The notes beneath the pieces were generated by a model. It saw only the letters and a program-made list of their open reading frames with translations, made no database searches and was not told where the DNA came from. From positions 1 to 40,542 of the forward strand of contig JAITWO010000023.1 of assembly GCA_031285205.1 (NCBI GenBank): DNA of 40,542 nt. The letters are read 5' to 3'. This DNA comes from Methanomassiliicoccaceae archaeon (GTDB taxonomy: Archaea; Thermoplasmatota; Thermoplasmata; Methanomassiliicoccales; Methanomethylophilaceae). Both the position numbers and the translations under genes were made by a program. This document shows positions 22,960 through 39,555 of the stretch, piece by piece. Every line of letters begins with the position of its first letter. Position 1 is the first letter of the stretch.

Positions 22960-23808
22960 TCACTCGTCGGGGCTGTTGCTGTTGGCCAAGCGGTCCGTCA
23001 GCTTCGCCAATTCATCACTGTCCATCATTTTGGTGGTCATCTCGATGAACGGGTGTTTGGCCCCTTCTATTATATTGACATCATCCAGTGAACGGAGCCC
23101 CCATTTCTCGGCCGTTCTTTCGAGGCCCAGCGTGACGTCGTAATTGTCCGGCTCAAGTATCACGGCATTGAACGTCCTGGCCCCCATCTTCCTTGCGGCC
23201 ATGACCCGATGATGACCGTCAACGATAAGATATCCCCTTATCCTCTTCACAACGATCAGCGGTTCGTTCAGCCCCCTCTTTATCTCGTACATTCGTCCGG
23301 TAAGCTCATCCATGAACACCTCTTTCTGTGTTGGAAGCGCCTCATTCAGCGGTATATCGCCGTAATTGATCTTCAGATGGATGCCATTCTGCTGTTCCAG
23401 GAATGACTTCACCGACATGACCTTCTCAGGCCTCGATTTCTCAATGTGCGAACGTACAACATCAATGTTCGAAATGATCCCGATGAGCATACCCTCTTTA
23501 TCAATGACGGGAAGGTTCCTGAGGCCGTACCTGAACAGCACGCGCATGGCATCATTCATACTCATCTCCGGCCTTGCGCACATGGTGCCCCTCTTCATGA
23601 CCTCCCTTATCTTCGCGTCAGGGCGGTCCGTGAAACGTAATAATTCCTTGGCGGTTATGAAACCGACGAGATATCCTTTCTGAGTGACCGGGAACCCATG
23701 AAAATTCGATTGGGTGATCTTCTTGGCGACCTCGCTTACCGTCATATCCGGATTGACGGACTCAACGACGGCAACCATGTAATCTGAGACGGTCGTCTGT
23801 TTGGGCAT
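22960..23808 (-). CDS. CBS-domain and ParB-like domain fusion protein
   Basis: The 282-residue protein has two N-terminal CBS motifs (about residues 8-125: VSDYMVAVVESVNPDMTVSE; IREVMKRGTMCARPEMSMND), which usually sense adenine nucleotides. A ParB/sulfiredoxin-like domain follows (about 145-225) with the hallmark DGHHRVMAARKMGA at 197-210. The ParB-fold superfamily includes DNA partition proteins, nucleases and the archaeal free serine kinase SerK, so a CBS-regulated small-molecule kinase is as plausible as a DNA-binding role. There is no parA nearby. A minus-strand TATA-like AGATTTAATCTC lies about 30 nt upstream of ATG 23808. Confidence 0.8.
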   Translation of the reverse strand: MPKQTTVSDYMVAVVESVNPDMTVSEVAKKITQSNFHGFPVTQKGYLVGFITAKELLRFTDRPDAKIREVMKRGTMCARPEMSMNDAMRVLFRYGLRNLPVIDKEGMLIGIISNIDVVRSHIEKSRPEKVMSVKSFLEQQNGIHLKINYGDIPLNEALPTQKEVFMDELTGRMYEIKRGLNEPLIVVKRIRGYLIVDGHHRVMAARKMGARTFNAVILEPDNYDVTLGLERTAEKWGLRSLDDVNIIEGAKHPFIEMTTKMMDSDELAKLTDRLANSNSPDE

Positions 23809-23990
23809 GTTATCTCATCCATATGAACGCAAAGGAGATTAAATCTGTTGCCGTCCCGGAACGATGTTTTGCAACTCGCTCGCGTACCATCCGTATATGA
23901 GTGTCACCGCGGGACGCTCATGTTCACCTGAGGTAACGGTGTGTACTATAATTATAAATAAATCACGGGCGATGATAACGGCAGGTCATC

Positions 23991-24656
23991 ATGACGGATA
24001 AGATATCTTCTGCAAGGTACAGGGAACGCAACGAGATCCTTATGTTCAAGGGAAAACCCGACGGGAGTTTCATAGGAGGTATAATGCCGTCCGTGTTCGA
24101 AAATTTCCGTCTCGGCCTTTACGAGAGAAGATACAAGAAGCTGAAGGCCGGATCTGAGAAATGGCATCTTGAGCAGGAAAAGGTCAGCAATCTGCCGTCA
24201 GTGAAGATACATGCGAAACGTAGGGCGCTATTTTACATGACAACGCTGAACTGCGGTGACAGACTGTACGTGCACCCCAAGGTCATAATCTATTTTCCGC
24301 AGAACATGACCATCGGGAACAATGTGTTCTTCAACAGAGGGGCGTTCATCACTGCAAGAGAAGAGGTCATAATAGGGAACGATGTCCTCATCGGTCCCAA
24401 CGTGATGATAAACAGCGGCAATCACAATTATGCGGATAAAAATAAATTGATACAGGAGCAGGGGCACACATCGAAGAAGATAGTCATAGGTGACGATGTG
24501 TGGATAGGCGGGAACGCGGTGATACTTCCCGGCATCACCATAGGGAAGGGCGCCGTGATAGCGGCAGGTGCGATAGTGACGAAGGACGTTGACGAGTATA
24601 CCGTCGTTGCCGGCATACCGGCAAAGAAGATGAAGGAGCGCGGAAGTAATGGATGA
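23991..24656 (+). CDS. Left-handed beta-helix (hexapeptide) acyltransferase
   Basis: This 221-residue protein has an N-terminal region like maltose/galactoside acetyltransferases (SSARYRERNEILMFKGKPDG), then hexapeptide repeats from about residue 88: VIIYFPQNMTIGNNVFFNRG, VIIGNDVLIGPNVMINSGNH, VIGDDVWIGGNAVILPGITI and IGKGAVIAAGAIVTKDV. The catalytic His is probably that in NSGNHNY. It is predicted to acetylate a sugar or surface glycan using acetyl-CoA. A TATA-like ATTATAAATAAA lies about 30 nt before ATG 23991. Confidence 0.87.
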   Translation: MTDKISSARYRERNEILMFKGKPDGSFIGGIMPSVFENFRLGLYERRYKKLKAGSEKWHLEQEKVSNLPSVKIHAKRRALFYMTTLNCGDRLYVHPKVIIYFPQNMTIGNNVFFNRGAFITAREEVIIGNDVLIGPNVMINSGNHNYADKNKLIQEQGHTSKKIVIGDDVWIGGNAVILPGITIGKGAVIAAGAIVTKDVDEYTVVAGIPAKKMKERGSNG

Positions 24657-24747
24657 CATTCTGTGTGGATCCATCAAGTCAAAAATGTTTTAAGTCCCCA
24701 GCACTTTCTGAAATGACAGCGAGGAGCGGTTTCAGGAGATTGCCGTG

Positions 24748-25032
24748 ATGGACAGGACTTTGAATTCAGTCGTACACGAATTAAAGATCAAGCCAGAGTA
24801 TTTCTTAGCTGTTCGGTCCGGCCATAAAAAATTCGAATTGAGAAAAAATGACCGAAATTTTAAGATCGGAGATGAGCTTATTTTATGTGAATGGGACGAA
24901 AACGGCTATTCAGGAGAGAAGGTCCGCTGTCGCATAGAGTATTTGCTGAAAGGCCATGACGGATTGGGTGAAGATTACGTCATATTAGGCATAAGCCTGA
25001 TTCACTATGGATCCACATACGCGAACGACTGA
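24748..25032 (+). CDS. ASCH/PUA-like protein, DUF3850 type
   Basis: This 94-residue protein carries the DUF3850 pattern: VHELKIKPEYFLAVRSGHKK, FELRKNDRNFKIGDELILCEW and GLGEDYVILGI. ASCH-type PUA-like folds bind RNA or modified nucleotides; the ligand is unknown here. AGGAG about 10 nt upstream supports ATG 24748 (GTG 24745 in frame). The 3' end overlaps the oppositely oriented ASCH gene by 28 bp. It is AT-richer than the flanking chromosome. Confidence 0.83.
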   Translation: MDRTLNSVVHELKIKPEYFLAVRSGHKKFELRKNDRNFKIGDELILCEWDENGYSGEKVRCRIEYLLKGHDGLGEDYVILGISLIHYGSTYAND

Positions 25033-25388
25033 GGCGCAGAGGTCAGCCCATAGTCCGAGAGGGCCCTCCCCCTAGGATATTGTTCGATCTTCTTTAGCTC
25101 ATAAGCAATAGCAAGGGACCTGCCCTTGTAGTATTCATCGAAGAATTCCTTATCTATACCAGCATGCTCAGACGTGATCCTCCAAAGATCTTCCGGGTGC
25201 TCTTCCAACACCTTTTCTATCTCCGCTTCCCCCACGACCTTCATCACCGGGGATGTGGAATAAATAACGATCTTCGAAATACTTTCTTTGCACCGGACCT
25301 TTCGGAACTCGTATTTTTTTGACCCGTTGAATATGTTATCAACATGGTTTGGATTTATCGATAATAACATTGCGTACATCTTTCCCAC
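25005..25388 (-). CDS. ASCH-domain protein, COG4933 type
   Basis: This 127-residue protein contains MYAMLLSINPNHVDNIFNGS, KKYEFRKVRCKESISKIVIY, STSPVMKVVGEAEIEKVLEE and an S-E-H-A-G-I-D-K-E-F-F-D-E-Y-Y-K-G segment, the usual pattern of small ASCH proteins. They are predicted to bind RNA or nucleotides through a PUA-like barrel. It overlaps the upstream GNAT-PUA gene by 50 bp on the same strand, so the two are coupled. It ends TAG followed directly by TGA, a tandem stop. ATG 25388 or ATG 25379 may be the start. Confidence 0.82.
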   Translation of the reverse strand: MGKMYAMLLSINPNHVDNIFNGSKKYEFRKVRCKESISKIVIYSTSPVMKVVGEAEIEKVLEEHPEDLWRITSEHAGIDKEFFDEYYKGRSLAIAYELKKIEQYPRGRALSDYGLTSAPQSFAYVDP

Positions 25389-26457
25389 CTATTTTCAAAA
25401 GTTCGACAGACTGTTCCCGGGTCAGTTTTTGATTGTATGGGTGCGATTTTCCCCATAATCCTTTTTCAACCAGTTTATTGTAATTCACATTGTTGCCGGC
25501 TCCGAAATACCCATTGTATAACATTTCGACAACATATACATTGGATTTGGAGAAGGAATCTCTGAGCTCTTCCTCGGAATATACTGTCTTATTGCCAACC
25601 AAATTGCAAAAATCTTCAAAATTTTTCTTCTCAATCCCAGATTCCTTCACAACAATGACATTTGTCACCGTGCAGAACGAGGTTACCACAGACTTGAATG
25701 ACGGTTTGTATTCAGTCCCGGTGTATTTTCGATATATGAATGCAAGATCGCCTTCTTTGTAGTCGAGCTTCCCGGCGGGAGTGGCGATATACGTTTTGGC
25801 AATCCCATTAGAGACCGGCAGTTCGCTCTCAAGCTGAGGAGTGTTCTTCAGTTCAGAATATTGGAACATCTTGTCGTGGAATACATCATTGATCGGTATG
25901 TATCTCCCTCTGCTGAAATCAGGAGAGATGAACGAAAACGATCTTTTTGGATCTGAATGATCCAATTTTCTCCTGTCTTTCATATAAACATTTTCCCCGT
26001 TATCCTTTTTACAGCAGAATGTAAAACCGTGTGTCTCTATAACTCCAATGATGTCTTTATGTTTTGGAAAAACGGTGACATATATCTCATTCAACCCTGA
26101 CTTCTGCCAATTCCAAAGCGCTATCCCTATCGCCCCTTCACCAAGACGTCTTCTTTTTGAAGTATCACATATCTTTATGGTCCCTATCTTCATCCTCGGT
26201 TCAGGGGGGAGTGTCCCGACCGCCTCTTCCTCACGATCCTTTAGATAAAGGAACGCCTGTATGGAAGAATCATCGGCGAGGTGGACATAGGCCTTTTCCT
26301 TTTTATCGGCCTTTCTGCGGAACCACTTCTCAAAATCAGGGTAATCCTCCTTCAGACTGTCAAAGAAAGGATCATTAATGTCACAATCGGCGAAACATCT
26401 TAAATTGAACGGATAATCTCCCTTCACAGTATCGTGCACCCATAACGTTATCGACAT
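25339..26457 (-). CDS. GNAT acetyltransferase-like protein fused to a PUA/EVE-like domain
   Basis: This 372-residue protein has an N-terminal GNAT-like fold (about residues 1-155): MKIGTIKICDTSKRRRLGEG holds an R-R-x-G-E-G-like acetyl-CoA loop, and INEIYVTVFP-like strand and EThGFTF-like helix-strand segments follow. The C-terminal part (about 205-372) has GKLDYKEGDLAFIYRKYTGT followed by FKSVVTSFCTVTNVIVV, similar to EVE/PUA-like modules that bind modified bases or RNA. The substrate is unknown. It is the first gene of a minus-strand pair with the ASCH gene. Lower GC than its neighbours and its place beside tRNA-Asp suggest horizontal transfer. Confidence 0.7.
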   Translation of the reverse strand: MSITLWVHDTVKGDYPFNLRCFADCDINDPFFDSLKEDYPDFEKWFRRKADKKEKAYVHLADDSSIQAFLYLKDREEEAVGTLPPEPRMKIGTIKICDTSKRRRLGEGAIGIALWNWQKSGLNEIYVTVFPKHKDIIGVIETHGFTFCCKKDNGENVYMKDRRKLDHSDPKRSFSFISPDFSRGRYIPINDVFHDKMFQYSELKNTPQLESELPVSNGIAKTYIATPAGKLDYKEGDLAFIYRKYTGTEYKPSFKSVVTSFCTVTNVIVVKESGIEKKNFEDFCNLVGNKTVYSEEELRDSFSKSNVYVVEMLYNGYFGAGNNVNYNKLVEKGLWGKSHPYNQKLTREQSVELLKIGGKDVRNVIIDKSKPC

Positions 26458-26582
26458 TCAACAATATAAAGTTTCAAGGGATATGGCTTTGCGCATAAAG
26501 TGCTCTGGCATTCAATTTTTAACTTTAAAAATAGGAAATACCTAAGGGTTATATACTGCTTCAGTATTGGCGATTTTACTGT

Positions 26583-26658
26583 GCCCTGATAGTGTAGCGG
26601 CCTATCATGAAGCCCTGTCGAGGCTTCGACCCGGATTCGAATTCCGGTCAGGGCGCCA
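26583..26658 (+). tRNA. tRNA-Asp (anticodon GTC)
   Basis: The acceptor GCCCTGA (26583-26589) pairs with TCAGGGC (26648-26654), with discriminator G26655 and encoded CCA. The anticodon stem AAGCC/GGCTT holds CTGTCGA, giving anticodon GTC. The T-arm is CCGGA-TTCGAAT-TCCGG. A TATA-like GTTATATACTG lies about 30 nt upstream. The ASCH/GNAT module lies on its 5' side. Confidence 0.95.
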
Positions 26659-32205: not shown

Positions 32206-33012
32206 TCATTCATCGACAAAAAACGTATCCAATACGATCTCGCCTTCTTCTGTTACGTAGTATTTATTCGTTTTTTTGTCTTTTTTTATCCAACCAAGTT
32301 CTTTCCATTTGTCCACAAAATCTCTTTGATAGCATACGGAATCATATCTCTTTTTCTCAATATCTGTGTCTTTAGACCTCTCTTTTCTGTACCATATTCC
32401 GTTTTTTTTCAATGAGTTTATGACAAATGTTCCGCTCGTCGGCTCATCTTTTCTGTTTTTTTCATCCATTATCCTCAAACCAGCCACCAGATGCTCTTCG
32501 GGTACGTCTATCCTATATCGCGGCAACACTCTCGGAGGGCGAGTAGCGGACGTAAGCCCCACCGGAACGCCATCTCTGTAGAATCTATCTTTGATCTCAT
32601 CATTTGGTATGGTCCATTCTTTGGTACCAACAGAGAACGGAATTGAGTTGGAAACCATCATTGACGCGATGACAGAGGCTGCGGTATACTCAGAGGTTCC
32701 TGCAGAGGTGTTCACGAACACATCTGCATTTTCTTCCGTTCGAAGTATTTTAAGGACCGTTCTGAGCATAGCGGTGAAATCAAAAACGGTCTCTATATGC
32801 TCTACGATCTTCGCTTCTGGAAGGTTCTCTCTTATCAGCTTACATACTTGTTCGTAGAATTCATTATAGATCCGATTCCTTTTGTTTGATGGACTGGTAT
32901 AATGGATCAAGTGAACCTTTGTAGCTTCATAATATATTATTGGATCCGTTATTTTAGAGGTCTCGAAAGTGACACATGATATGACAACACGTTCTTTGCG
33001 TCCGGATGGCAT
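32206..33012 (-). CDS. CARF-domain HTH regulator (DUF6293/Csa3-like)
   Basis: From ATG 33012 the product is 268 residues; the frame is open to 33162, but that segment overlaps the cas3 promoter and start and has odd composition. The N-terminal half is a CARF-like Rossmann fold (VVISCVTFETSKITDP; then ADVFVNTSAGTSEYTAASVI, with the typical N-x-S-x-G-T nucleotide-binding turn). The C-terminal half is a winged-helix-like region ending DKWKELGWIKKDKKTNKYYV. CARF domains sense cyclic oligoadenylates or related ligands. Divergent from cas3 across a 110-bp gap, it probably controls the cas promoter. Confidence 0.78.
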   Translation of the reverse strand: MPSGRKERVVISCVTFETSKITDPIIYYEATKVHLIHYTSPSNKRNRIYNEFYEQVCKLIRENLPEAKIVEHIETVFDFTAMLRTVLKILRTEENADVFVNTSAGTSEYTAASVIASMMVSNSIPFSVGTKEWTIPNDEIKDRFYRDGVPVGLTSATRPPRVLPRYRIDVPEEHLVAGLRIMDEKNRKDEPTSGTFVINSLKKNGIWYRKERSKDTDIEKKRYDSVCYQRDFVDKWKELGWIKKDKKTNKYYVTEEGEIVLDTFFVDE

Positions 33013-33122
33013 AATTACATAATATATTATTACGTATATTACAATTTCTACGTAGGAAAAGTTTATTAGATACTCTTCGTATTGCATTCTAAAATCGGAA
33101 GGAGAGAAAAGGGGGCGACTTA
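33013..33122. promoter_or_regulatory. Divergent promoter between the CARF regulator and cas3
   Basis: The 110-bp gap is very AT-rich, with a palindromic TAATATATTA and two TACGTA cores (near 33031 and 33049). On the minus strand a GTAATATACG box about 25-30 nt before ATG 33012 suggests a leaderless CARF mRNA. On the plus strand AGTTTATTAG (near 33059-33068) is a likely TATA box for cas3, with GGAAGGAG and GGGGG tracts before the GTG start. The TACGTA repeats are candidate CARF-regulator sites. Confidence 0.5.
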
Positions 33123-35456
33123 GTGGTAAAAGAAGAACCGATGATAGAAGGCGGCATTGCACATATGGCCGAAGGATCGCTACAAACTGTATATGATCAT
33201 CTCAAAGGCACGGCAGCGTTGTCTTCGGATATCGGGTCGAAGATAGGAATGGCCAAGACATGTGAGGCATTGGGGCTGACCCACGACCTCGGAAAACTTT
33301 CCAGTTCATTTTACAAAAAAATATTATATGGCGATAGAGAATCGACAGTAGACCATTCAACATTCGGGGCGCAATTCGTCAAGGATACAATGACCAAAAA
33401 TACAGACATGGACTGCTTAGCTGAAGAAGCAGTTTCACTCGTATCCATGTCTCATCACTCTGGATTGATCGATATGATCACTCTCGATGGAAAGGACGAA
33501 TACGGTCGGCGAATAGATAACAGAAAAAGATCGAATTATGATGATATTATAACACGCATTGAGCCAAACTTCAGAGAAAATCTCATCAACATATTGAATT
33601 CAGGCATTTTGCAGTCCGAATTCGAAAACATCATTAAAATATTTCCCCAGGAAGACTGCTTCAATTTTGGACTTCTCCTCAGATATCTGCTGAGTTGTCT
33701 CGTGGATGCAGATCGCCTCAACACGGAAGAATTCTGTTCCAAGGACGATTATAACAAACGATGCGGATATAAGTATGTTGATTGGAGTGAACTCGTGAAC
33801 AAACTGGACGAATATATATCCTCCAAATGTCCGACCTCTAGATTGGATGACGTTCGAAATCACATATCAAAACAATGTAAGGTCAGCGCTGAGAGAGGAA
33901 ACGGCATATATTCCCTGAATTTACCTACAGGAAGCGGGAAGACATTGGCAAGCCTAAGGTTCGCATTGAATCATGCTCTAATCAATAAAATGGAGCGCAT
34001 CGTGTATGTGGTCCCGTATACATCTATTATTGATCAGAACGCTAATGATATAAAGGATATATTCAGAGAACTCAGAGATCTGGTGCTGGAGCACCATTCG
34101 AACATGGCAGTCGATGACAGAGATGAAAATAGATCATCTCTGCGTTTTACCGTCGATAACTGGGATTCGCAGATAATATTCACAACAATGGTGCAGTTCC
34201 TCAATACGTTTTTCTCAGGCGGTACGTCCACGGTCAGAAGGATGCACAATCTTACACGCTCAGTGATAATATTCGATGAGATACAGGCATTGCCGATAAA
34301 ATGTATCAATCTGTTCAACTGCGCAGTCAATTTTATCACACGTGTATGTGGGGCTACGGCAGTCGTTTGTACAGCTACACAGCCTCCATTGGACGAAGTA
34401 AAGAAACAATTATTTCTTGATAGAACACCTTTAGTGGAGCTGTCACCGGAAATGGAAGAGGTCTTCAAGAGAGTGATAGTTAAGAACATGCACAAAAAGG
34501 ATGGGTGGAATGCAGAGCAGATCGCCGAACTCATAACTGAAAAGAGGGATGAAGGAAAGAGTGTTCTTTTCATTGCCAACACGAAACGCGGTGCAAGGAA
34601 TGTATTCAGTTTACTCGGCGGAGATAAATTTCATTTAAGTACTAATATGTGTCCCGCACACAGAAAGAATGTCATAGATGCGGTAAGAAAAGATCTCAAA
34701 GATAATAAGAACACGTTGTGTGTGAGCACACAATTGATCGAGGCAGGGGTTGACATGGACTTCAATGTCGTCATAAGAGCAATGGCAGGGTTGGATTCCA
34801 TAGCACAGTCTGCCGGCAGATGCAATCGCAACGGAAAGATGTCTGAACCAGGAGAGGTATTGATCGTGAATTTTATCGATGAGCGTGTGCAGATGCTTGA
34901 GGATATAACAAAAGGGCGGCGTGCGGCAGAAAGTGCATTGCAGAGAAATTTCAGCGACCCGATCGGTAAGGAGGCCATGAGATGGTATTACAGTTCGTTG
35001 TTTGAAAATAGAAAGCATGAGATGGATTATCCATTTGAATCGACCACACTAATTAATATTCTCAGTACCAACAAACAAGCAGTAAGAGAATATGGCAGAA
35101 TCGAAGGAAGGGCCCCTACATATATGATACGCCAATCATTCAAAACAGCAAACGATAAATTCAGTGTCATCGATTCGAATAAGATAGGCGTGATCACCGA
35201 ATACGGCGAAGGCAGAAAAATATCAGAAGAACTAGAGAAAATGATCTCGGGCCACACAAGCCGAAAGAATCCAGAGGTAAGGAACATGTTGAGGGAGGCA
35301 CAGAAATATTCTGTAGAGGTATTCGAGAACCAGCTGTCAGAATTGGTAAAACGGGGAATCGTATGTGAAGTGGCAGAGGGCAGCGGAGTGTATAGAATGA
35401 TAAATAGCGTTTATGATGAGGCCACAGGCCTTGATGTAGAACAGAGCGAGGCATGA
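33123..35456 (+). CDS. cas3: CRISPR-associated nuclease/helicase Cas3 (type I)
   Basis: Cas3 is recruited to the Cascade-bound R-loop to nick and degrade target DNA. The 777-residue protein has an N-terminal HD nuclease (HD at 54-55 in LTHDLGKLSSSFYKK, H78, HH at 111-112) and an SF2 helicase: Walker A LPTGSGKT (267-274), DEIQ box (385-388), CTATQ motif III (416-420), and motif VI QSAGRCNRNG (562-571). All catalytic motifs look intact. The start is GTG 33123, with ATG 33141 in frame as an alternative. The stop overlaps cas5 (ATGA). Confidence 0.95.
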   Translation: MVKEEPMIEGGIAHMAEGSLQTVYDHLKGTAALSSDIGSKIGMAKTCEALGLTHDLGKLSSSFYKKILYGDRESTVDHSTFGAQFVKDTMTKNTDMDCLAEEAVSLVSMSHHSGLIDMITLDGKDEYGRRIDNRKRSNYDDIITRIEPNFRENLINILNSGILQSEFENIIKIFPQEDCFNFGLLLRYLLSCLVDADRLNTEEFCSKDDYNKRCGYKYVDWSELVNKLDEYISSKCPTSRLDDVRNHISKQCKVSAERGNGIYSLNLPTGSGKTLASLRFALNHALINKMERIVYVVPYTSIIDQNANDIKDIFRELRDLVLEHHSNMAVDDRDENRSSLRFTVDNWDSQIIFTTMVQFLNTFFSGGTSTVRRMHNLTRSVIIFDEIQALPIKCINLFNCAVNFITRVCGATAVVCTATQPPLDEVKKQLFLDRTPLVELSPEMEEVFKRVIVKNMHKKDGWNAEQIAELITEKRDEGKSVLFIANTKRGARNVFSLLGGDKFHLSTNMCPAHRKNVIDAVRKDLKDNKNTLCVSTQLIEAGVDMDFNVVIRAMAGLDSIAQSAGRCNRNGKMSEPGEVLIVNFIDERVQMLEDITKGRRAAESALQRNFSDPIGKEAMRWYYSSLFENRKHEMDYPFESTTLINILSTNKQAVREYGRIEGRAPTYMIRQSFKTANDKFSVIDSNKIGVITEYGEGRKISEELEKMISGHTSRKNPEVRNMLREAQKYSVEVFENQLSELVKRGIVCEVAEGSGVYRMINSVYDEATGLDVEQSEA

Positions 35457-36145
35457 AGATGGAGAACAAGGTCTATGTAAGAGTCAGTGGACGCAGAGCG
35501 ATGTTTACCGACCCCATAACAAAAATAGGAGGCGAAAAGGGATCGTACCCCATACCTACATACGAATCTCTCAGAGGGATAATGGACTCCATATATTGGA
35601 AACCAACGTTCGTATGGGTGATTGACAAGGTACGGATAATAAATCCAATAAAGAATGAAACGGTCAATGTTAGAACAATAAAATATCATAGCACAAGTGG
35701 CGACCTTTATATTTACAATTATCTGCGGGATGTCGAATATGAGATAGAGGCTCACTTCGAATGGAACCTGAACAATAAGGCCATGGAGAATGACCGTAAT
35801 GATAACAAACATTTCTTCTCGGCCAAAAGGATGATCGAAAAAGGAGGACACCTTGATGTATTCCTTGGGACGCGCGAATGTCCTGCGATAGTGGAACCGT
35901 GTGAAGAATTCGGGCGGAAGGATAGTGCATACAAGAATACTCAGAAGTTCGAGTTCGGTTTGATGTTCCACGGTTTTGATTACCTCGGCCCGAACGGAGA
36001 GGATATTCTGACCGCGCGTTTTTGGAAGCCTGTGATGATCAACGGTACGATCGATTTTCCTCGCCCAGACGATGGGTCTCTGATGATAAAGAGGGTTAGA
36101 GGCACAGAATATGCTCCGAGAGCGGCATCGGAAGAGGTGGCATGA
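35453..36145 (+). CDS. cas5c: Cas5c/Cas5d, type I-C
   Basis: In type I-C systems, which lack Cas6, Cas5 is the endoribonuclease that cuts pre-crRNA at the repeat hairpin and then caps the 5' handle. The 230-residue protein has the Cas5d pattern: KVYVRVSGRRAMFTDPITKIGG, then YPIPTYESLRGIMDSIYWKP, and a glycine-containing C-terminal region with LDVFLGTRECPAIVEP. ATG 35453 overlaps the cas3 stop; ATG 35459 is also possible. No cas6 is seen in the window. Confidence 0.92.
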   Translation: MKMENKVYVRVSGRRAMFTDPITKIGGEKGSYPIPTYESLRGIMDSIYWKPTFVWVIDKVRIINPIKNETVNVRTIKYHSTSGDLYIYNYLRDVEYEIEAHFEWNLNNKAMENDRNDNKHFFSAKRMIEKGGHLDVFLGTRECPAIVEPCEEFGRKDSAYKNTQKFEFGLMFHGFDYLGPNGEDILTARFWKPVMINGTIDFPRPDDGSLMIKRVRGTEYAPRAASEEVA

Positions 36146-37989
36146 TGCCATCATGGATGCAGAGGCTGTGCGAGACCTACGACTCATTGCCAAAAGGACA
36201 TGGAGACAAACCGTTGTTGCCTATCGCTCACACCACACAGACTGCGCACTTAGAGGTTTATCTGAACGAGAACGGAGACTTTTTACGTGCGCGTCCAACT
36301 GAAAAGAAAACGGCGAACACGATAATACAGTGCACATCTGACAGTGCGGGAAGGACAAGCGGAGTCGCTCCGCATCCGTTGTTCGATAAGTTACAATATG
36401 TAGCGAAAGGCATCCCAAAAAGTGAAAAGCATTTTGATGCCTATGTCTCTCAATTACGGCAATGGTGCGATGATAAAGAATTCTCTGACCACAAAGCGAG
36501 AGCAGTCCTGTCTTATGTCGAGAAAGGAAAAATAATGCAGGACCTGACAGACTGCGGCGTGTTCCTCGATATGAGCATCAAGGGCGAAAAGCAGATCGTC
36601 TCTCTCAGTAAAGAAACGTGGCAGAAGGATCTAAAACTGAAGGACGTTTTTGTGAGATGGTTTGTGGAAGGCATAGATATTCATTCGGATATCTCAACCG
36701 ATAGAAATGTACAGAATAACTGGACAAAATACTGCCTGAAGATCGCAGATAAGACAAAGAAACATGGCATGGATATAGTGACAGGCAGAGATAATGTTCC
36801 TATTGAGAATAATCATCCAAGCAGGATACGGAATGATGGAGACCGCACGAAAATAATATCATCCAATGATACGTTAGGGTATACGTACAAAGGAAGATTC
36901 ACTGATGCGGACCAGGCCTGTACGATCGGTTACGAGAGTACGGAAAAGGCACACCAGGCGCTTAGGTGGCTTATCAGAAATCAGGGGATTCACCAAGGCG
37001 ATTGGTATTTTGTCGCGTGGTCGATCTCTGGAAATGAGATAATGGATCCTCTCAAAGATCCGGCCAAGACGCTTTTCAAAGACGATGTGGATGAAGGAAT
37101 ACCTCATACTGCAGAATCTGCCGCCATAAAATTGAACAAACGACTTATCGGAATTGATAAGGACGTTAATACGAAGCACATCTCCATGATGGTACTGGAC
37201 TCCACTAACGGCATGATGGGAAGACTGGCGGTCGAATATTACAAAGAGTTCAACGGTTCGGAGTATGAAAGGCTGTTGAATGAATGGTTCAATTCGTTCT
37301 CGTGGTATAGGACAGAGTTCTCTGATGCTAAGAAAGGAAAGGGCAACAAGCCGACGGAGATCGTGTGTCCTCCGTCAATAGATATGATCATCGAATCAGC
37401 ATACGGAACCGTTGATGATAAAATGAAAAAATATTGTTACAGCCGATTATTTCCATGTATAATCGAATGTATGCCGATACCTCCGGATATTCTATCAAAC
37501 GCGCTACGCAGAGCATCCAATCCGTTAGCATTCGATAGCCCATACAAGTGGGAGAAAGTGATATCCACTGCTTGTGCCCTGTACAGAGGAGACAAATTAA
37601 GAAAAAACAGAGGAGAAAATAAAATGACCCTTGATAAAGACAGAAGATCGAGGAGCTATCTTTATGGGAGACTGTTGGCCGTAGCCCACGAACTCGAAAA
37701 GAGAGCGCTATACTCGGCGAAAGAGGACAGACAGACGAACGCAATGCGAATGATGCAGAAATTCTCGGAGCGCCCGTATTCAACATGGATGTTGATATAC
37801 GAAGCACTCGCGCCCTACAGGCCGCGTGTCAAATATGCTGAATACTTCGATAGCATTATATCGGAGATCATGGACATTTTTGACATCGAGGATTTCACCG
37901 ACAATAGGAGACTGGACGGGGAATATATATTGGCATTCTACACACAGTCGAGAGAGTTTAGATATAAGAAAGACAAAGAGGAGGATTAA
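36142..37989 (+). CDS. cas8c: Cas8c (Csd1), type I-C large subunit
   Basis: This is the large subunit of the I-C Cascade complex, needed for PAM recognition. The 615-residue protein matches the Csd1 family in length and in segments: PIAHTTQTAHLEVYLNENGD near the N-terminus, HPLFDKLQYVAKG, the central ALRWLIRNQGIHQGDWYFVA region and a C-terminal SYLYGRLLAVAHELEKRALY. ATG 36142 overlaps the cas5 stop, so the subunits are translationally coupled. Confidence 0.92.
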   Translation: MMPSWMQRLCETYDSLPKGHGDKPLLPIAHTTQTAHLEVYLNENGDFLRARPTEKKTANTIIQCTSDSAGRTSGVAPHPLFDKLQYVAKGIPKSEKHFDAYVSQLRQWCDDKEFSDHKARAVLSYVEKGKIMQDLTDCGVFLDMSIKGEKQIVSLSKETWQKDLKLKDVFVRWFVEGIDIHSDISTDRNVQNNWTKYCLKIADKTKKHGMDIVTGRDNVPIENNHPSRIRNDGDRTKIISSNDTLGYTYKGRFTDADQACTIGYESTEKAHQALRWLIRNQGIHQGDWYFVAWSISGNEIMDPLKDPAKTLFKDDVDEGIPHTAESAAIKLNKRLIGIDKDVNTKHISMMVLDSTNGMMGRLAVEYYKEFNGSEYERLLNEWFNSFSWYRTEFSDAKKGKGNKPTEIVCPPSIDMIIESAYGTVDDKMKKYCYSRLFPCIIECMPIPPDILSNALRRASNPLAFDSPYKWEKVISTACALYRGDKLRKNRGENKMTLDKDRRSRSYLYGRLLAVAHELEKRALYSAKEDRQTNAMRMMQKFSERPYSTWMLIYEALAPYRPRVKYAEYFDSIISEIMDIFDIEDFTDNRRLDGEYILAFYTQSREFRYKKDKEED

Positions 37990-37991
37990 TA

Positions 37992-38885
37992 ATGAAGACA
38001 TTGGAGAACAAGATAGATTTCATGCTGATATTCACAGTTCAGAATGCAAATCCGAATGGAGATCCGCTGAATGGGAACAGACCAAGACAGGACTATTCCG
38101 GCCGAGGAGAGATATCGGACGTCTGTCTGAAGAGGAAGATCAGGAACAGGATGATAGACATGGGCTGCGACATATTCGTTCAGTCGGACGACAAGAAAAC
38201 GGATGACCATGCGACATTGGAGCAAAGATTTGATGCTTACATCAAAGAATCCGGCACGGACATCCGAAAAACACAAGAAGCAGCAAGCGGAGCGTGTTCC
38301 AAATGGATCGATGTCAGATCATTCGGTCAGCTGTTCGCAATTCCGTCTAAAAAATCCAAAAAAGGAGAGGCAGGAGACGGCGAGGGAGACAAGGGCGTTT
38401 CCATAGGGGTGCGCGGCCCCGTGTCCATCCAGTCCGCATTCTCGGTAAGCCCAATATCTATAAGCAGTCTTCAGATAACGAAGAGTGTCTCGTCTACCGG
38501 TGACGGAACGAAGAGGTCTTCAGACACCATGGGAATGAAACACCGTGTGGATTGCGGCACATACGTCATGTATGGTTCAATAAACACAATATTGGCCAAG
38601 AAGACCGGATTTTCATCAGATGATGCAGAGGTGTTGAAGAAGGTACTTCAGACAATGTTCGAGAACGACATGTCTTCTGCGAGGCCGGAAGGAACGATGG
38701 CAGTAAAGAGGCTGTACTGGTGGAGACACAGCACTCCAAGCGGCCAATATTCATCCTCAACGGTTTATGGGTCCGTTAAATTGAACCCGAAAACGGGTGT
38801 GCAGGACCCTTGCGCATTCAATGATTACGATATCGTTGTAACGCCGTTGGAGGGATTGAGACCGGAGATAATCGAACCACTATAA
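37992..38885 (+). CDS. cas7c: Cas7c (Csd2), type I-C backbone subunit
   Basis: Cas7 forms the helical backbone that holds the crRNA. The 297-residue protein starts NKIDFMLIFTVQNANPNGDP with the conserved N-P-N-G-D-P-L segment, followed by GEISDVCLKRKIRNRMID, a central RGPVSIQSAFSVSPI segment and a C-terminal YDIVVTPLEGL. It begins 2 bp after the cas8c stop. Its length fits the family. Confidence 0.94.
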   Translation: MKTLENKIDFMLIFTVQNANPNGDPLNGNRPRQDYSGRGEISDVCLKRKIRNRMIDMGCDIFVQSDDKKTDDHATLEQRFDAYIKESGTDIRKTQEAASGACSKWIDVRSFGQLFAIPSKKSKKGEAGDGEGDKGVSIGVRGPVSIQSAFSVSPISISSLQITKSVSSTGDGTKRSSDTMGMKHRVDCGTYVMYGSINTILAKKTGFSSDDAEVLKKVLQTMFENDMSSARPEGTMAVKRLYWWRHSTPSGQYSSSTVYGSVKLNPKTGVQDPCAFNDYDIVVTPLEGLRPEIIEPL

Positions 38886-38887
38886 AC

Positions 38888-38916
38888 GCGGGCAACCCCC
38901 GCATCTCTTATTTTTT
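38888..38916 (+). terminator. Terminator-like hairpin between cas7c and cas4
   Basis: A GCGGG/CCCGC stem (38888-38892, 38898-38902) with a 5-nt loop is followed by ATCTCTTA and six T (38911-38916). It lies just after cas7c and immediately before the cas4 start, so it could partly terminate the interference transcript and lower expression of the adaptation genes. Confidence 0.55.
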
Positions 38917-38919
38917 GTG

Positions 38920-39555
38920 ATGGCCATGTATTCTGAAGAAGATATGCTCATGCTTTCAGGCATACAGCATTTTGCATTCTGTAAGAGACAGTGGGCAATG
39001 ATACATCTGGAAATGCAATGGGAAGAGAATGAACGTACCGCACGCGGTAAACAGGTGCATAAGAAGGTTGATACTTATCGCGCCAGAGAGAGCAAAAAGG
39101 ATATGCTGATCTTAAGGTCGGCACGCGTGTCAAGTCATGAACTCGGATTGTACGGCATGTGCGATGTTGTTGAGATATTAACAGATGCCAATGGAAACAT
39201 CAGATCCGCACATCCTGTCGAGTATAAATCCGGAAGGCCAAAAGAGAATGACTGTGACAGAGTGCAACTTTGCGCACAGGCGATAGCCATCGAAGAAATG
39301 ATGGGCATCAATGTTCCGTTGGGATCTATCTATTATAACGAGATACGAAGGAGGCTCATAGTTCAGATAGATAAGGAATTGAGAGACAGAACGATCGAAC
39401 TATCGAAGGAGATGCATGAAGTGTTCGAACAAAGGGCCACGCCAAAACCGAGATACGGAAAATGGTGTGGCCATTGTTCACTCGAAAATATCTGTATGCC
39501 GTCGATCATTTCTGACAATAAGCCAGTAGAAGAGTATTTGATGAAACAACTATGA
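38920..39555 (+). CDS. cas4: Cas4 exonuclease
   Basis: Cas4 trims and orients prespacers with the Cas1-Cas2 integrase and selects the PAM. From ATG 38920 the product is 211 residues (GTG 38917 and ATG 38926 are in frame). It has the RecB nuclease motifs GKQVHKKVD, GMCDVVEIL and HPVEYKSGRP, and four cysteines for a 4Fe-4S cluster: one in FAFCKRQWAM and three in KWCGHCSLENIC. It is separated from cas1 by 9 bp. Confidence 0.94.
   Translation: MAMYSEEDMLMLSGIQHFAFCKRQWAMIHLEMQWEENERTARGKQVHKKVDTYRARESKKDMLILRSARVSSHELGLYGMCDVVEILTDANGNIRSAHPVEYKSGRPKENDCDRVQLCAQAIAIEEMMGINVPLGSIYYNEIRRRLIVQIDKELRDRTIELSKEMHEVFEQRATPKPRYGKWCGHCSLENICMPSIISDNKPVEEYLMKQL

Follow-up and report, generated by a model that had tools for sequence, protein, structure and literature searches.

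A GNAT-EVE and ASCH gene pair of a described family, with a convergent DUF3850 gene, in a Methanomassiliicoccales archaeon

Introduction

On contig JAITWO010000023.1 of a Methanomassiliicoccaceae archaeon (GenBank assembly GCA_031285205.1), three overlapping genes lie within 1.7 kb beside a tRNA-Asp gene. We analysed the surrounding 40,542 nucleotides, referred to here as the window. A first-pass annotation, made from the letters of the sequence alone, had described the genes as two ASCH proteins and a fusion of a GNAT acetyltransferase with a PUA/EVE-like domain, and proposed a mobile RNA-modification, toxin-antitoxin or defence cassette. The locus raises the question to which family these genes belong, how they came to this chromosome and whether the third gene is part of the same module as the other two.

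Domain composition of the three genes

Two of the genes are found on the minus strand. The GNAT-EVE fusion (25339-26457, 372 aa) is the predicted toxin and the ASCH gene (25005-25379 from an ATG, or to 25388 from a GTG) is the predicted antitoxin. Convergent to them, on the plus strand, is a DUF3850 gene (24748-25032) of the PUA clan, a possible third component. Open reading frames, Pfam and PADLOC profiles and AlphaFold models agree that all three genes belong to the PUA superfamily and that one of them is fused to an acetyltransferase fold, as first proposed. The overlaps reported at first were recovered as well: 28 bp between the convergent DUF3850 and ASCH genes, and 50 bp between the GNAT-EVE and ASCH frames if the GTG start is used, or 41 bp (25339-25379) with the ATG at 25379, which is the start that aligns with the relatives.

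The plus-strand protein matches the Pfam family DUF3850 (Pfam: PF12961) with an E-value of 5.4e-29 and ASCH more weakly (2e-5), and a profile search matched it to the solved structure 3iuw (1.7e-22). Calling both proteins ASCH is thus only loosely correct, since this one belongs to DUF3850, a PUA-clan family different from that of the ASCH gene. The ASCH protein itself has a weak match to the Pfam ASCH model (0.002) and a much clearer one to the solved structure of ZmASCH (PDB: 5guq, 3e-19 in a profile search), which belongs to the same ASCH subfamily. Conserved in the protein are a GxKxxExRK motif, Y41 and P117-Q118-S119. Of the ZmASCH-type residues Tyr47, Lys53 and Ser128, the tyrosine is kept here as Y41 and the Gln-Ser pair (Q127-S128 in ZmASCH) as Q118-S119, whereas the lysine is shifted by one position (M47-K48).

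For the GNAT-EVE protein alone, no Pfam match was found, and a PDB search with the single sequence gave zero matches. When aligned relatives were compared with Pfam, one matched EVE (5e-4) and several matched GNAT families. The AlphaFold (AF2) model has two domains with a pLDDT of 89. Its N-terminal half is a GNAT fold, with the toxin AtaT among the structural matches and 6gtr and 6ajm among those given by Foldseek, and its C-terminal half (residues 171-372), which was also modelled separately (pLDDT 88), is a PUA/ASCH/EVE-type barrel that matches ZmASCH, MJECL36, AF2351 and, weakly, YTH in structure comparison. The invariant residues are G106, Y126, T128, G144-F145 and E155 in the numbering of alignment A4, which starts at the first codon and is possibly one below the translation numbering; they include the glycine of the acetyl-CoA loop (G106) and the GF motif (G144-F145).

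The minus-strand pair belongs to a described family

Both minus-strand proteins are matched near full length by PADLOC profiles, the GNAT-EVE protein by PDC-M11A (1.2e-68) and the ASCH protein by PDC-M11B (1.3e-43). The DUF3850 protein has only a 24-residue match to PDC-M11B (0.003). PDC-M11 is an unvalidated candidate system, like the majority of PDC systems (PMC12988326).

Furthermore, Bell et al. 2020 (PMC7641849) described fusions of the (PIN)-GNAT-EVE kind, nearly always in an operon with an ASCH gene, from archaea, bacteria and prophages, and predicted them to be toxin-antitoxin systems; they credit Iyer et al. for an earlier description. The window pair has the same fusion and the same ASCH partner, and its occurrence is likewise sporadic and mobile in archaea and prophages. 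It differs in having neither a PIN domain nor an adjoining AAA_17 gene, in the additional convergent DUF3850 gene, and in the modelled C-terminal barrel, which is structurally closest to ASCH (ZmASCH) and has no clear Pfam EVE match.

Another example is found in Escherichia phage PhiR47_2 (PV340567), where a homologous pair is annotated as GevT toxin and GevA antitoxin. These proteins are 31% and 45% identical to the window pair, in the same order and with a similar frame overlap, but the phage-borne genes lie beside cI and have no DUF3850 gene within 5 kb. Our literature search found no paper on GevT/GevA or PDC-M11, and the GevT and GevA names rest on this one phage record. With these three descriptions at hand, the initial view that the cassette is not named in standard catalogues does not stand: the GNAT-EVE and ASCH pair is an already described family, catalogued in bacteria and their viruses.

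The inserted block and its surroundings

In six congeners, tRNA-Asp comes immediately after a CBS gene or within ~0.5 kb of it, and a block of ~2.67 kb (23863-26534, boundaries approximate to ~10 bp) is missing from this same site. The first-pass annotation had suggested comparing close strains and had noted the low GC of the genes; the insert has a GC content of 0.44, against 0.54 on its left and 0.52 on its right. Besides the three genes, the insert holds a hexapeptide-repeat acyltransferase (23991-24656, plus strand; Pfam: Hexapep), which is not part of the module elsewhere and for which just one of the 60 relatives searched has a close counterpart. We recognised neither an integrase nor any viral gene in the insert, and a promoter scan of the region gave no excess over shuffled sequences.

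The tRNA-Asp gene (26583-26658, plus strand, called by ARAGORN) does flank the insert, but this is incidental, as it follows the CBS gene in the congeners and none of the other loci scanned has a tRNA close to the module. We therefore reject an integration at the tRNA: the tRNA promoter lies downstream of the block, with its conserved TATA-like element (~26547-26560) intact in the empty-site alignment, and we saw no direct repeat on the flanks.

On its left the insertion is bordered by a stable neighbour, a CBS-ParB-fold fusion gene (22960-23808), an archaeal architecture surveyed in PMC12704722. Elsewhere in the window there is a marginal Rfam tRNA match (94-152, 31 bits) not called by ARAGORN, and, ~6 kb from the cassette, a low-GC type I-C CRISPR-cas operon (32206-39555), in which Cas8c was confirmed by PADLOC and Cas3, Cas5, Cas7 and Cas4 were read by eye. 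A CARF protein gene (32206-33162; CARF3 model, 4.5e-96) is divergent from this operon.

Distribution and horizontal acquisition

Among 147 genomes of the order, GNAT-EVE was found in eight (leaving out a weak match in genome G041), this type of ASCH in 13 and DUF3850 in 11. Relatives of GNAT-EVE and ASCH are also found on plasmids, in phages and on at least 80 viral contigs. In a tree of the ASCH proteins, built on 125 columns only, the window protein groups with the gut bacteria Lachnospira eligens and Monoglobus (support 97/93) in a mixed archaeal-bacterial clade (100/98). In genome G028 (locus L014, 3031-13978) the module lies in a defence island together with a RiboL-PSP HEPN protein, a GmrSD/NsnA-like protein, two CBASS-type cyclases, a 2TM effector and a transposase, and in a relative from the same family as the window genome the module has as its neighbour the gene for the large subunit of the archaeal/eukaryotic primase.

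The empty sites in six congeners, the low GC and the relatives on plasmids, in prophages and in a defence island support a mobile toxin-antitoxin or defence cassette, and they support a horizontal, sporadic acquisition of the GNAT-EVE and ASCH pair. The pair is neither scattered as independent genes nor fixed in the core with normal composition, whereas the DUF3850 gene is only partly linked to it.

The many mobile copies would also suit a selfish or phage element, in which the pair helps a prophage or plasmid to persist or provides superinfection exclusion, the archaeal copy being a stranded remnant. At least 80 viral-contig loci and several plasmids carry the pair, and its position beside cI in PhiR47_2 points the same way. 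Against this, the genes in the window are intact, the insert holds no recognisable integrase or viral gene and the G028 copy sits in a defence island, and we regard this explanation as rather unlikely.

Coupling of the predicted toxin and antitoxin genes

In nearly all of ~100 loci the ASCH gene lies downstream of GNAT-EVE in the same orientation. In 90 of 97 loci the two frames share 20-41 bp; many of the viral loci are nearly identical to each other, so the independent cases are fewer. This conserved overlap suggests translational coupling of the two genes.

The gene of the predicted toxin is disrupted in more cases than the ASCH gene. GNAT-EVE is frame-broken in genome G034, only its C-terminus is left in G036, and it is split in four prophages (L057, L065, L091 and L095), while ASCH is split in L091 only. 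In psiM100 (L011, 2065-4857) most of a PIN-GNAT-EVE gene falls within an annotated insert, IFa, and according to the annotation the ASCH gene ORF5 is common to psiM100 and psiM2; judging by this annotation, psiM2 appears to be a natural antitoxin-only state. Moreover, ASCH genes or fragments with no GNAT-EVE match were found in five genomes (G412, G345, G453, G421 and G189), some of them near contig ends. Decay of GNAT-EVE with the ASCH gene kept is what one would expect if the two were a toxin and its antidote.

This pattern bears on a proposal by Iyer et al., cited in PMC7641849, that GNAT-EVE proteins are base modifiers. GNAT-EVE would then acetylate a base in the DNA or RNA of an invader, and ASCH or DUF3850 would read or erase the mark, with no toxin-antitoxin function. 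PUA, EVE and ASCH domains bind modified bases (PMC7641849), and the ASCH protein YqfB removes the acetyl group from N4-acetylcytidine (PMC6972931). However, a YqfB-type ac4C amidohydrolase (triad Lys21/Thr24/Glu74) is unlikely for either protein and was rejected, because the position of the nucleophile Thr24 is an invariant glutamate both in ASCH (E25) and in DUF3850 (E30). The preferential decay of GNAT-EVE with ASCH kept also fits a toxin better, and we consider base modification of invaders improbable here.

DUF3850 as a third component

The new element at this locus is the convergent DUF3850 gene, which is found tail-to-tail with the known pair in several archaea. This arrangement occurs in four of the eight GNAT-EVE loci of the order, in four genera and in different settings: in the window genome beside tRNA-Asp (28 bp overlap), in G036 between HipA and priL (0 bp), in G058 beside TerC (49 bp) and in the defence island of G028 (7 bp). 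In G034 the pair without DUF3850 is also found upstream of priL, in the opposite orientation. The paper of Bell et al. (PMC7641849) was not among the results when full texts were searched for DUF3850, and we therefore take it that this family is not named there.

DUF3850 may be an unrelated neighbour that landed next to ASCH by chance, an explanation to which we give a nearly even chance. It is common on phages and plasmids, is free-standing where it is not adjacent to the pair and is missing from the other four GNAT-EVE loci of the order, and none of 80 viral DUF3850 loci had the pair next to it. The tail-to-tail position in four genera speaks against chance, and so does the co-occurrence of DUF3850 and GNAT-EVE by genome, which is five against ~1 expected (hypergeometric P 0.0008, relatedness ignored). 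We tentatively suggest, and hold to be somewhat doubtful, that the archaeal module is tripartite, with DUF3850 as a genuine third component that may be a second antitoxin or a sensor of modified nucleic acid triggering or restraining the toxin.

As a general partner of the pair DUF3850 was rejected, since neither the bacterial loci among the matches listed nor most of the prophages examined have it next to the pair. In seven of the prophages (L045, L046, L048, L049, L054, L055 and L090) a same-strand DUF3850 gene lies ~560 bp downstream of the pair; all of them belong to one clade, so this placement is probably one event.

Proposed mechanism

We consider it likely that the pair is a horizontally acquired GNAT-EVE/ASCH (GevTA, PDC-M11) toxin-antitoxin system with a predicted toxin, probably serving antiviral defence or element maintenance. 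Our literature search found no experimental characterisation of the GNAT-EVE family, and no measured toxicity, neutralisation or phage protection for the GNAT-EVE and ASCH pair.

The toxins of AtaTR and TacAT are single-domain GNATs. The GNAT fold is common to these toxins and the window protein, whereas their antitoxins are DUF1778 family members (PMC9177977) and the partner here is ASCH. TacT and similar GNAT toxins stop translation by acetylating charged tRNA (PMC9241777), and by analogy with AtaT and TacT the target of GNAT-EVE is probably also tRNA. The GNAT domain would transfer the acetyl group of acetyl-CoA to a target carried by an RNA, the likeliest being the amino group of a charged tRNA, and the C-terminal PUA/EVE-like domain would pick this RNA. 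Acetylation would halt translation, and growth would stop.

The ASCH protein, translated from the frame that overlaps the toxin stop, would restrain the toxin by binding the toxin or its RNA, and infection or loss of ASCH would release it. ZmASCH cleaves single-stranded RNA, and its Tyr and Gln-Ser positions bind RNA (PMC5615036); by this analogy the ASCH protein here might act enzymatically instead of by binding. The convergent DUF3850 protein would be a second regulator or an accessory, retained in a part of the archaeal lineage.

A widespread, predicted GNAT-EVE toxin-antitoxin family is now placed on host chromosomes of this archaeal order, with evidence that genes have passed between gut bacteria and archaea. 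If DUF3850 is a true third partner, one cassette would hold three PUA-fold readers, and the role of DUF3850 would show whether reading of RNA is how proteins with this fold work as antitoxins.
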